DNA of 38,504 nt from Pseudomonadota bacterium (GTDB lineage: Bacteria > Desulfobacterota > Desulfobulbia > Desulfobulbales > SURF-16), in the NCBI GenBank assembly GCA_018897105.1, contig JAHILF010000076.1, positions 1 through 38,504 on the forward strand, in the 5' to 3' direction. Shown here one piece after another: positions 12,588 through 16,447 of this stretch (positions within the stretch are counted from its first letter, which is position 1; each line of letters begins with the position of its first letter). Both the position numbers and the translations under genes were made by a program. The notes under the pieces were generated by a model that was given only the letters and a program-made list of their open reading frames with translations, did not search any database and was not told where the DNA came from.

Positions 12588-14176
12588 AAAAAGCGGCTTC
12601 CGATACCGGCCGGATCGCCCGTTCCGCCGGCACCGTCTCCGTTGCCGTAATGTGCAGCCGGGTGCTGGGGCTGGTGCGGGAGCAGGTGTTCGCCGTGATG
12701 TTCGGCGCGGGTTTTGCCTATGACGCCTTTGTCGTGGCCTTCCGTATTCCCAACCTGCTGCGCGATCTCTTCGGCGAAGGGGCGCTCAGTTCAGCCTTTG
12801 TTGCGGTGTTTTCCGACTATGATGCCAACAAGGGCGAAAAGTCCACCTGGCAGCTCGCCAATAATGTGCTGGTCTTTTTTGCTATGCTGCTGAGCCTGGT
12901 CACCCTGGCCGGCATTTTTCTGGCCGACCCGCTGGTGCGGCTGCTGGTGGACCCCGAGTTTGTCCAGGTGCCGGGTAAGGTGGATCTGACCCGGCAGTTG
13001 ACCATTGTCATGTTTCCCTTTCTGATCTTTATCTCGCTCTCCGCCGTGGTGATGGGCATGCTCAACACCAAGGGGCGTTTTTTTATTCCGGCCATGGCCT
13101 CAAGCTTTTTTAACGTGGGCTCCATTGTCGGCGGTCTCAGCCTGGCCTTTATCCTGCCGAAATTCGGCTATCCGGCCATCATGGGCATGGCGCTGGGCAC
13201 CTTGATCGGCGGTTTTCTGCAGCTTGCCGGGCAGCTGCCCACCCTGTTCAGGGCAGGCTTTTCTTTTGCACCCCGGCTAGATCTCGCCGACCCGGGCCTG
13301 CGGCGCATTATCCGCCTGATGATTCCTGCTGTTATCGGCCTGTCCGCCACCCAGATCAATATCTTCATCAACACCCGCTTTGCCTCCTCATGTGTGGAGG
13401 GTAGTGTCTCCTGGCTTAATTACGCCTTCCGGCTGGTGCAGCTGCCTATCGGTGTTTTCGGCGTGGCGATTTCCATCGCCTCCCTGCCGGTTATCGCCCG
13501 TTATGCGGCGGCAAAGAATCTGGAGAAGATGCGGGAGACCTTCACCTCGGCGCTCACCATGGCGTTCTGTCTGACCATTCCCGCCAGTTTCGGGCTGTGG
13601 CTGCTGTCGGAGCCCATCATCAGGATCATTTTTCAGTACGGGGCCTTCAGTGCCTTTGACACGGCCCGCACCGCCGAGGCTCTGCGCTTTTACGCGGTAG
13701 GGCTTTTTGCCTATTCATCGATAAAAATCATGGTGCCTGTTTTTTTTGCACTCGATGACACCCGATACCCGGTCATGGCAAGTTTTCTTGCCGTGGCGGC
13801 AAATCTCGTCTTTGTTACCGCCACCATTGGCCAGTTCCAGCACAGGGCCATCGCGCTTTCCACCTCTTGCGCCATGATCTGCAATTTTCTTTTTTTGAGT
13901 GTCGTGCTGTATAAAAAGCTTTCCGGCTATTCGCTTTCCTATCTGTTTGAGGGAATCTCTAAGGTTTTTTTGGCCTCTCTTATTATGAGCGCCTGTCTGA
14001 AGGTTGTGCTCTCCTTGGGAGAGAATTTTTTCAATCAATCGATTTTACTGCAGATTGTCGGTGTTTTCGTGTATATAGCAACGGCAGTCGCAGTCTACGG
14101 CATCCTGCTGTATCTGCTGAAAGTCAAAGAGCTTTCCCTGATTATTGATAAGCTTAAGCAGAAGTTTGCCGGTTGA
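12584..14176 (+). CDS. murJ: Lipid II flippase MurJ
   Basis: A 530-residue MOP-superfamily inner-membrane protein with about 14 hydrophobic segments that flips lipid II for peptidoglycan assembly. The MviN/MurJ signature is clear near the N terminus: SRVLGLVREQVFAVMFG, then DAFVVAFRIPNLLRDLFGEG with the conserved Arg residues, and later NTRFAS and QYGAFSAFD segments. The ATG at 12584 is chosen over an in-frame GTG at 12566: AGGGTGAAG lies just before it and it overlaps the previous stop as ATGA. The 3' end overlaps the convergent rsmE gene by 23 bp. Confidence 0.94.
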   Translation: MKKAASDTGRIARSAGTVSVAVMCSRVLGLVREQVFAVMFGAGFAYDAFVVAFRIPNLLRDLFGEGALSSAFVAVFSDYDANKGEKSTWQLANNVLVFFAMLLSLVTLAGIFLADPLVRLLVDPEFVQVPGKVDLTRQLTIVMFPFLIFISLSAVVMGMLNTKGRFFIPAMASSFFNVGSIVGGLSLAFILPKFGYPAIMGMALGTLIGGFLQLAGQLPTLFRAGFSFAPRLDLADPGLRRIIRLMIPAVIGLSATQINIFINTRFASSCVEGSVSWLNYAFRLVQLPIGVFGVAISIASLPVIARYAAAKNLEKMRETFTSALTMAFCLTIPASFGLWLLSEPIIRIIFQYGAFSAFDTARTAEALRFYAVGLFAYSSIKIMVPVFFALDDTRYPVMASFLAVAANLVFVTATIGQFQHRAIALSTSCAMICNFLFLSVVLYKKLSGYSLSYLFEGISKVFLASLIMSACLKVVLSLGENFFNQSILLQIVGVFVYIATAVAVYGILLYLLKVKELSLIIDKLKQKFAG

Positions 14177-14906
14177 TCTGGCGCAGCAGGTTCAGCTGGG
14201 CCAGCAGGGCGGGTACGGCGCTGTCAACCCGCAGGATGCGGGGGCCCATGGAAAAAGTCTGAAAGCCGAGGGATTGGAACTTGTCGATCTCAAAGTCGAC
14301 CCAGCCGCCTTCCGGACCGATGGCAATGACGACTCGTTGCTTGAGGGGTAGGGAAACGGTTTGCGGTAGAAAGGGGAAGGGGCCGGGATGGGCGGCAAGA
14401 CGCACCGGGCAGTCGTCTATGGCCTGGGGCAGCACGTCCTCGACAAAGGGTCTGAAGCGTTTGTGGATACTCACCTCCGGGACCATGGTATCAACCGCCT
14501 GTTCCAGGCCGTGCAGCAGCAGCGGGTAATAGTTGTTTTCCGTGAGCAGTGAGGCGGAAAAGAAGCTCTTTTCCACCCGGCTGGCGTTGATGAGATAGAT
14601 TTTTCTCACGCCGAAGGTGGCGGCCTGGGAAAAGATTCTTTTCAGCATGATGGGGCGGGGCAGGGCCAGGATGAGATCAATGGCCGGCCGGCCAGGGGCA
14701 GGGCCGTGATGGTTTGTCACAAGTTCCACCGCCTCCACCGTGATGGCGACCACCGTGCTGGTGCCCATGGGGCCGTTGATGAGGCCGGTGCGCAGGGTGT
14801 CGCCGCAGACCGCGCCAAGCACCTTACTGATATGGTCACTGCGTCTGTCCCGCAGGGTCACCCGGTTGTTTTTGACCTCGGCTGGATCGATGAGAATGAT
14901 GTTCAT
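14154..14906 (-). CDS. rsmE: 16S rRNA (uracil-1498-N3)-methyltransferase RsmE
   Basis: A 250-residue SPOUT methyltransferase that methylates U1498 of 16S rRNA. An N-terminal PUA-like part (about 1-70) is followed by the SPOUT fold: LALPRPIMLKRIFSQAATFG, INASRVEKSFF, then the knot and SAM site AIGPEGGW and GPRILRVDSAVPALLAQLNL near the C terminus. The length is normal. The ribosome-binding site is weak. It overlaps murJ tail to tail by 23 bp. On its upstream side the spacer toward waaA is mostly occupied by the 181-bp inverted-repeat element, so the element is within its promoter region. Confidence 0.92.
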   Translation of the reverse strand: MNIILIDPAEVKNNRVTLRDRRSDHISKVLGAVCGDTLRTGLINGPMGTSTVVAITVEAVELVTNHHGPAPGRPAIDLILALPRPIMLKRIFSQAATFGVRKIYLINASRVEKSFFSASLLTENNYYPLLLHGLEQAVDTMVPEVSIHKRFRPFVEDVLPQAIDDCPVRLAAHPGPFPFLPQTVSLPLKQRVVIAIGPEGGWVDFEIDKFQSLGFQTFSMGPRILRVDSAVPALLAQLNLLRQINRQTSA

Positions 14907-14955
14907 GGGGCTACCGTTTTGCGTTTTGGGTTGGCTGCGGAAAAAATGTTACAGT

Positions 14956-15136
14956 TGAGCCTCTTGCAAAATGAACGTCGTAGCGAGATCGAGAGAAAAA
15001 TTTTCTGTGCAAGGATGAGTTATGAAATCGCCCGGAAGCGTAGCAGTGTGCTACGTTGAGGACGATTTCACCAGGAAGACGCCGCACAGGATATTTTTAG
15101 CCGATCGGAGTAGATTTTCATTTTGCAAGAGGCTCA
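14956..15136. mobile_element. 181-bp MITE-like element with perfect 20-bp terminal inverted repeats
   Basis: Left end TGAGCCTCTTGCAAAATGAA (14956-14975) is the exact reverse complement of 15117-15136. The interior is itself largely self-complementary: GAAATCG pairs with CGATTTC and CGTAGCA with TGCTACG around the centre (about 15021-15068), and further out AAAATTTTCTGTGC pairs imperfectly with GCACAGGATATTTTT. The whole could fold into one long hairpin. It contains no coding frame. No clear target-site duplication is visible. It fills most of the rsmE-waaA spacer. It looks like a non-autonomous element mobilised by a transposase elsewhere, or a large REP-like repeat. Confidence 0.8.
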
Positions 15137-15144
15137 GTTATAAA
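15115..15144 (+). promoter_or_regulatory. Possible promoter at the right edge of the inverted-repeat element
   Basis: TATAAA at 15139-15144, immediately outside the element, is 18 bp after TTTTCA (15115-15120), a weak -35 mostly inside the right terminal repeat. It points at waaA, whose ATG is 25 bp further on. The -35 matches only 4 of 6 consensus bases. Confidence 0.25.
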
Positions 15145-15169
15145 AAATCAGGGCAGAATCTCTTTTACC

Positions 15170-16447
15170 ATGCTGGCAGTATATAACCTCATTCAGCTTC
15201 TGGGCCTTCTTTTTCTTTGGCCGTTTTTCCTGTTGCTGGTGGTCTGCAAGGCCAAATATCGCCTGCGCATTCCGGCCAGGCTCGGTTTCGGGCTGAGTGG
15301 TCTTGTGGGAAAGATTCCCGCGGGAGGTCCCCGCATCTGGATTCATGCCCTTTCCCTGGGAGAGGTCTCCTCAGCCGTCACCCTGGTGCATGCCATCAGA
15401 GAGCATTTCCCTGATGCGGTATTGCTTTTTTCCGCGGCCACCTCATCGGGTGAGAAGTTCGCCAGGAGCAGTAAGGGCCTGCCGGTTGATCTTTTTATCC
15501 CGTTTCCCCTTGATGTGTATCCGGTGGTGCAGCGCTTTGTCAAAAACCTGCGGCCTGATCTGTTTATTCTCGTTGAGACCGATTTCTGGCCGAATTTTCT
15601 GCATGAAGTTGTCGCTGAAAATATTGCCGCTCTGTTGGTCAATGGCCGCATTTCCCAGGAATCATATAGGAAATACTCCTTTTTTCAAGCTTTCTTTCTG
15701 CCCATGTTTCGCTCGTTTTCCTTTCTTGCCATGCAGCGGCAGGAGGATGTGGAAAAAATGGTCAACCTGGGGGTTGCTGCCCGCAAGGTAAAAAATCTCG
15801 GCAACCTCAAGTATGAGGCCATGTTGCCCAAGCTGGGCGCAGACATTATCAGCAGAAAGGATCTGGGGATTGATGCTGCCCGCCCTCTGTTGATTGCCGG
15901 CAGCACCCATGACGGCGAGGAGGAAATACTGTGCCGGGTTTATCAGGAACTGGCCAAAAAATTCCCGGACCTGTTTGTCATCCTTGCCCCCAGAAACATT
16001 GAAAGAGCCCAAGGGGTGATGAAACTTGTCCGCAATAAGGGGCTGCTCGTCTCACTCCGGAGTGCGGGAAGCAAGGCTGATGATCAGCTGATGGTGCTTG
16101 ATACCATGGGGGAGCTGGCCGGCCTTTACCAACGGGCTGATATCGCCTTTATCGGCGGCAGTCTGGTGGCCCAGGGCGGCCACAATCCGCTTGAGCCTGC
16201 CGTTGCAGCCATCCCGGTTCTTTTCGGCCCGCATATGGAGGACTTCGCCGATGTGGTGGAGGACATGCTGGCAGCCGGGTGTGCCATTCAGGTCGGCAAT
16301 GAAAGTGAGCTTTTTCAGGGCATCTCAGCTTATCTCAAGGACGCAGGGAAAAGACAGGAAAAAGGAGTGGCAGCCCGTCAATTTGTGGAGTCCCGTCAGG
16401 GAGTGAACATGCGTCATATCGATTTGATCAGGCAGGTTTTGTCATGA
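15170..16447 (+). CDS. waaA: 3-deoxy-D-manno-octulosonic acid (Kdo) transferase WaaA
   Basis: A 425-residue GT30 glycosyltransferase that adds Kdo to lipid IVA at the inner face of the cytoplasmic membrane. Residues 5-26 form an N-terminal membrane anchor. HALSLGEVSSA at 59-69 contains the catalytic Glu65. Later motifs typical of the family are ETDFWPNF (lipid/acceptor side), NGRIS, AGSTHDGEEE, and the nucleotide-sugar site FIGGSLVAQGGHNPLEPA. Whether it adds one or two Kdo units cannot be predicted. The start has only a weak ribosome-binding site. It overlaps lpxK as ATGA, forming a two-gene operon for the inner LPS core. Confidence 0.93.
   Translation: MLAVYNLIQLLGLLFLWPFFLLLVVCKAKYRLRIPARLGFGLSGLVGKIPAGGPRIWIHALSLGEVSSAVTLVHAIREHFPDAVLLFSAATSSGEKFARSSKGLPVDLFIPFPLDVYPVVQRFVKNLRPDLFILVETDFWPNFLHEVVAENIAALLVNGRISQESYRKYSFFQAFFLPMFRSFSFLAMQRQEDVEKMVNLGVAARKVKNLGNLKYEAMLPKLGADIISRKDLGIDAARPLLIAGSTHDGEEEILCRVYQELAKKFPDLFVILAPRNIERAQGVMKLVRNKGLLVSLRSAGSKADDQLMVLDTMGELAGLYQRADIAFIGGSLVAQGGHNPLEPAVAAIPVLFGPHMEDFADVVEDMLAAGCAIQVGNESELFQGISAYLKDAGKRQEKGVAARQFVESRQGVNMRHIDLIRQVLS

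Follow-up and report, generated by a model that had tools for sequence, protein, structure and literature searches.

A short gene-less inverted-repeat element with IS1182-like ends in the rsmE-waaA spacer of a Desulfobulbales genome

The stretch of DNA analysed here (the window, 38,504 nucleotides) carries rsmE and a gene for a waaA/kdtA-type Kdo transferase (Table 1). The product of the latter also matched the NCBIfam equivalogs at up to 329 bits, under their cut-offs. As a first-pass annotation of the sequence had stated, the two genes are divergent and are transcribed away from the DNA between them, where perfect 20-bp inverted repeats, TGAGCCTCTTGCAAAATGAA, lie at 14956-14975 and 15117-15136. 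That annotation described a 181-bp element with these ends and a foldable interior, and both properties were confirmed: the 181-nt strand has a folding energy of -85.1 kcal/mol, against -44.7 ± 3.9 in shuffles (n = 200; z = -10.35), and none of the 200 shuffles matched its fold. The repeats are thus real, but comparison of copies moves the bounds inward by one base on each side. Since a duplicated AGTT takes in the bases at the two extremes, T at 14956 and A at 15136, the element itself is 179 bp long (GAGCC...GGCTC) with a 19-bp perfect TIR. The interior, described earlier as lacking a coding frame, holds no ORF of at least 80 aa and the element has space for fewer than 60 codons; the sole ORF above this threshold that overlaps it (14706-15059) starts on the rsmE side.

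Table 1. Features of the rsmE-waaA region, with positions in the window, and full-length insertion sequences with similar ends, with their lengths.
Feature	Position or length	Strand	Target duplication	Basis or remark
rsmE, 16S rRNA (uracil1498-N3)-methyltransferase, neighbour outside the element	14154-14906	-		NCBIfam NF008700, 276 bits (cut-off 252); PF04452
Left target-site duplication, 4 bp	14953-14956	.	AGTT	Identical to 15136-15139; relatives with empty site
Element read as a MITE, 179 bp, ends of the IS1182-like family, long imperfect palindrome, no known gene	14957-15135	.		Own-genome copies; 4-bp duplications at copies
Left TIR, GAGCCTCTTGCAAAATGAA, 19 bp, perfect in the window copy	14957-14975	+		Similar ends on full-length insertion sequences
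Right TIR, minus-strand reading GAGCCTCTTGCAAAATGAA	15117-15135	-		Inverted-repeat match
Right target-site duplication, 4 bp	15136-15139	.	AGTT	Identical to left copy
waaA/kdtA-type Kdo transferase, neighbour outside the element	15170-16447	+		Pfam PF04413, 169.7 bits (cut-off 23.9)
L190, Spirochaetae MAG	1481 bp		GCCT	Transposase gene
L148, Paracoccaceae MAG	1349 bp		ATTA	Gene interrupted by stop
L269, same order	1391 bp		ATTT	Transposase gene
L265, same order	1296 bp		GATG	Transposase gene
L267, same order	1296 bp		CATG	Transposase gene
L251, same order	1233 bp		AATA	Transposase gene
L253, same order	1492 bp		TGTT	Gene with stops

With the element and one AGTT removed, the rsmE-waaA spacer is 80 bp long and aligns nearly base for base with that of two members of the genus, G002 and G004. 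None of the five same-genus relatives has the element in this spacer, a result of the comparison suggested in the first-pass annotation that favours a MITE. In G001, of the same genus, additional DNA of another kind (L201) precedes the waaA start in the spacer and includes an inverted repeat, ACCACGGAGCGCACAGAG... / ...CTCTGTGTGCTCTGTGGT, as though the spacer had been struck by another element. The window element had been expected either to carry or to tolerate the promoters of its neighbours. A consensus scan, which covered the sigma-70 type only, found no sigma-70-like promoter in 14880-15200, so that toleration fits better than carriage. As far as the sequence can tell, no effect on rsmE or waaA was found.

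The genome of the window (G000) is a draft of 4.95 Mb in 177 contigs. Among the matches listed (the best 40 of 44 candidates scored), the element was found at 26 places in it, comprising 17 full-length copies, six cut by contig ends, one interrupted (C38, with some 150 bp inserted), one internally deleted (C132) and one fragment (C103). Because two pieces cut at contig ends may belong to a single copy, the number of copies among the matches listed could be 23-26 rather than simply 26. The 17 full-length copies have a mean identity of 97.2% to the consensus, the window copy 98.3%, and the length across copies is mostly 177 bp. Recent movement had been proposed on the strength of the perfect ends; the ends alone give no date, but the closeness of the window copy to the consensus, its intact duplication and its absence from the nearest relative all favour the proposal. 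Four 18-base ends that stand alone, each with no more than one mismatch (C136:8232, C157:97318, C158:7004 and C33:31649; L055, L056, L057 and L059), also occur in this genome. No recognisable second end or interior accompanies them when degenerate partners are sought. Comparison of L055 and L057 with relatives pointed to no clear mechanism, and L057 is nine bases longer than its G002 counterpart. The reversed control pattern for the 18-base end gave no match at one mismatch.

If selection had kept a regulatory RNA or attenuator here to serve the rsmE-waaA region, this would account for the very stable fold and for a position upstream of both genes. The first-pass annotation had named one lone copy, retained at the locus across distant species, as the sign of such an RNA; what we found are dispersed copies in the own genome and relatives' spacers without the element. 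In addition, no Rfam family matched 14900-15200 up to E = 1, and a consensus scan recognised no intrinsic terminator-like site in the element. Taken with the empty spacers of all five same-genus relatives and the 26 places listed, this leaves a regulatory RNA with a negligible probability.

Six contig ends of the own genome (C8, C15, C71, C77, C90 and C125) lie inside copies, from which it follows that the element causes assembly breaks. That copies do break the assembly lends some substance to the idea that the window element is an assembly artefact. However, the duplication around the window copy is intact where relatives have an empty site, and the same element is present in the assemblies of other species, so we give an artefact virtually no credence.

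Duplication of the target was not confined to the window copy. A scan for such ends gave at least 109 stretches among the matches listed. Among 102 elements that differ in sequence, measure roughly 80-190 bp and have such ends with both flanks, exact 4-bp repeats flank 71, where permutation gave an expectation of 1.7 and a maximum of 7 in 2000; repeats of 3, 5 and 6 bp flank 3, 5 and 1 of the same elements. At the 16 testable copies of the own genome the repeat is exact over 4 bp in seven, is 5 bp in one (AATAC, copy L014), differs by one base in six and is unmatched in two. The age of some copies, recombination among them or joins made in assembly could each account for this lower 4-bp share. 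When the flanks of these 16 copies were joined, 11 junctions were spanned by no ORF of at least 120 aa. The other five were spanned by an ORF, with the junction at most 12 bases from the ORF end (L005, L009, L013) or the ORF opposite a longer one (L010, L012); at L013 there is additionally a 135-aa ORF over the junction, opposite a 502-aa ORF. By mechanical gene calls, none of the 16 copies has clearly broken a gene.

The first-pass annotation had also proposed looking for an insertion sequence (IS) with the same ends. Complete ISs of 1.2-1.5 kb with similar ends, 4-bp duplications and a DUF772/DDE transposase were found in other genomes (Table 1), those of the host's order coming from G127, G139 and G011. 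Of further full-length candidates, L247 has a 5-bp repeat, and L250, L260 and the L261/L266 element have no exact one of 4 bp. The 205-aa L141 query gave ten transposase matches in G011, from the host's family, and six of these ran from residue 3 to residue 205. Transposase pieces stand beside such ends at seven more loci, mostly at contig ends (L141, L135, L087, L110, L180, L117 and L133); four of the seven are from Desulfopila aestuarii.

These ISs also bear on whether the element might be a REP/BIME-like repeat moved by a RAYT (TnpA-REP) and not a derivative of a DDE IS. Such repeats would likewise be palindromic, multi-copy and mostly intergenic, but a length of about 177 bp, fixed ends, 4-bp duplications and the similar ends on DDE-type ISs make this origin highly improbable. 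DUF772 and DDE_Tnp_1 exceeded the Pfam cut-offs in all three transposases scanned (L190, L265 and L269). Both domains also occur in IS5, and so are not specific to IS1182. The best NCBIfam match was NF033551 (IS1182), at 86.9 bits for L190, 85.6 for L269 and 71 for L265 against a cut-off of 270, and IS5 models of NCBIfam also matched the partner transposases below cut-off. Compared with the transposase of L265, the presumed partner, those of ISUnCu17 and other plasmid ISs, mostly annotated IS1182, show 43.8-45.4% identity. From these sequence matches the partner family is probably IS1182-like, a name that rests on scores under the curated cut-offs.

Agreement between the element and the ISs is limited to about 15-20 terminal bases, which makes the element a type II MITE. 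Since homology ends there, the link between MITE and IS rests on the ends and on the length of the duplication. Searches of the own draft genome found no transposase like that of L190, none like the 205-aa L141 piece at E 1e-10 and no DUF772 (PF05598). When four MITE-bearing genomes (G000, G002, G004 and G053) were searched for DUF772, matches were obtained in G002 alone. The weak or DUF772 matches L192-L195 (G002, G003) were considered as partners and rejected: three of the four have no ends at up to five mismatches, and L195 has one poor end match per strand and no credible pair. A pair of ends 1412 bp apart in G053 proved to be two MITE pieces around host genes, not an IS. In the minority of IS-bearing genomes covered, an IS and the 177-bp MITE were not seen together; G011 carries the IS but gave no match to the MITE.

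The short length, TIRs, AGTT duplication, dispersed copies, empty sites and ISs with similar ends support the earlier reading of the sequence as a MITE. The element is almost certainly a gene-less MITE of type II inserted between rsmE and waaA; its family is probably IS1182-like, and for movement it most likely depends on the transposase of a full-length relative. Its anatomy suggests that a DDE transposase from the full-length relative would recognise the 15-20-bp ends and that the element would move by DNA transposition. Insertion would be mostly intergenic, at AT-rich 4-bp targets that become duplicated; the targets and the duplication were seen. The empty sites indicate that the window copy, which has no evident cargo, was inserted into the 80-bp divergent spacer, most simply after the split from the five sequenced same-genus relatives.

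Comparable elements have been described. The account in PMC3852290 gives a MITE of ISMac2 (IS1182 family) in Methanosarcina acetivorans, assigned to its IS1182 partner by its ends, with 160 bp, 14 copies, 26-bp inverted repeats and 4-bp direct repeats, and a second with 169 bp, 7 copies, 25-bp repeats and no direct repeat. Compared by these descriptions (PMC3852290), the window element is like the ISMac2 MITEs in size, in the 4-bp repeats of one of them and in the IS1182 link, but their host is an archaeon. Prokaryotic type II MITEs are characterised in PMC10969869 by similarity to ISs in the TIRs only, AT-rich intergenic sites, a stable stem-loop and direct repeats. From that characterisation (PMC10969869) the window element shows no essential difference, although it forms a separate sequence family. 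A text search for the 15-base end sequence and a topical search, together a weak test, did not find the element in print. It is well supported that the element is new by sequence at most and not by kind, being an ordinary MITE. This settles the nature of the rsmE-waaA hairpin, and a defined element (GAGCCTCTTGCAAAATGAA ends, mostly 177 bp, 4-bp duplication) with a candidate transposase is available for annotating genomes of Desulfobulbales, whose draft assemblies are broken by its copies.

A search of the genome and its relatives, as the first-pass annotation had suggested, established that the element is repeated beyond its host, with matches in 11 of the 58 genomes searched, the own genome included (10 of 57 relatives). 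The match numbers of relatives are not copy numbers, as both strands of the palindrome were counted and the best 14 candidates at most were taken per genome. Clear copies occur in G002 and G004 of the same genus and in G053, G056 and G039 of other families of the order. Weaker matches are partial, at 71-72% identity (G023, G027), or of end length only (G047, G048, G051). In this search of 57 relatives the same-genus genomes G001, G003 and G005 had no element match. The consensus sequences of G000, G002, G004 and G053 are 97.7-98.9% identical to each other, with 98.9% between G000 and G053, which belongs to another family. A tree of 57 copies, with good support for 7 of its 54 inner branches, mixes the copies of G000 with those of G002 but groups those of G053, G004 and G056 in clusters. 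Horizontal spread between families of the order is a plausible reading of these sequences, and the near-identity of the consensus across families makes the element a possible marker of horizontal exchange. No plasmid or phage sequence searched gave a DNA match to the element at E 1e-5.

The same ends also enclose other interiors. When 103 elements were clustered by interior, groups of 68, 14, 7 and 5 and nine singletons were obtained, with exact duplications at 49, 10, 6, 2 and 4 of them respectively, so that at least four unrelated interiors lie behind the same ends. One singleton, L153, was masked inside, and in the five singletons that have no duplication the ends may have been paired by chance. 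G005, which had no element match, yet has many of the same ends; three pairs (L305, L306 and L307) are spaced 162-163 bp, and the interior between them differs from that of the window element.

A variant of the MITE reading holds that the hairpin is selected over its whole length, as transcript structure or cruciform, and not just because its ends must match. Covariation was tested on 24 sequences of one core group, chosen from 65, over 54 pairs. Overall, 97.0% of cells were paired, and changes on both sides were seen at 7 pairs and in 20 cells. Shuffles reached 7 pairs in 3 of 500 cases and 20 cells in 0 of 500, versions with the structure slid along gave 1-4 pairs and 1-7 cells, and six of the seven pairs with two-sided change lie in the core, beyond the outer helix. 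However, the alignment used for the test had also supplied the structure, which favours it over the slid versions, and related copies inflate the counts. A further 22 pair types were equalled by 45 of 500 shuffles, the covariation term of RNAalifold was -0.49 of -44.88, and arm-to-arm copying in replication would yield an identical pattern. Selection of the hairpin thus seems unlikely, at perhaps one chance in a handful. A broader proposal is a little less likely still: that one IS1182-like end sequence is a portable shell, taken up in Desulfobulbales and in some other phyla by several palindromic cores unrelated to one another, that selection acts on the hairpin of the core as well (for example as a transcript that folds, or as a cruciform that aids transposition or shields neighbours), and that the elements spread horizontally between families with the autonomous partner rare or absent.

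Other inverted repeats were encountered within such elements. At L154:7117-7248 the same ends flank a core that contains another palindrome, CTTCGACAGGCTCAG... / ...CTGAGCCTGTCGAAG, as though these ends had captured a repeat. The stretch of about 150 bp inside the interrupted copy C38 of the own genome (L064:467-619) likewise has another inverted repeat, GTAGGAGCGGGC... / ...GCCCGCTCCTAC, which we take to resemble the REP sequences of Pseudomonas.
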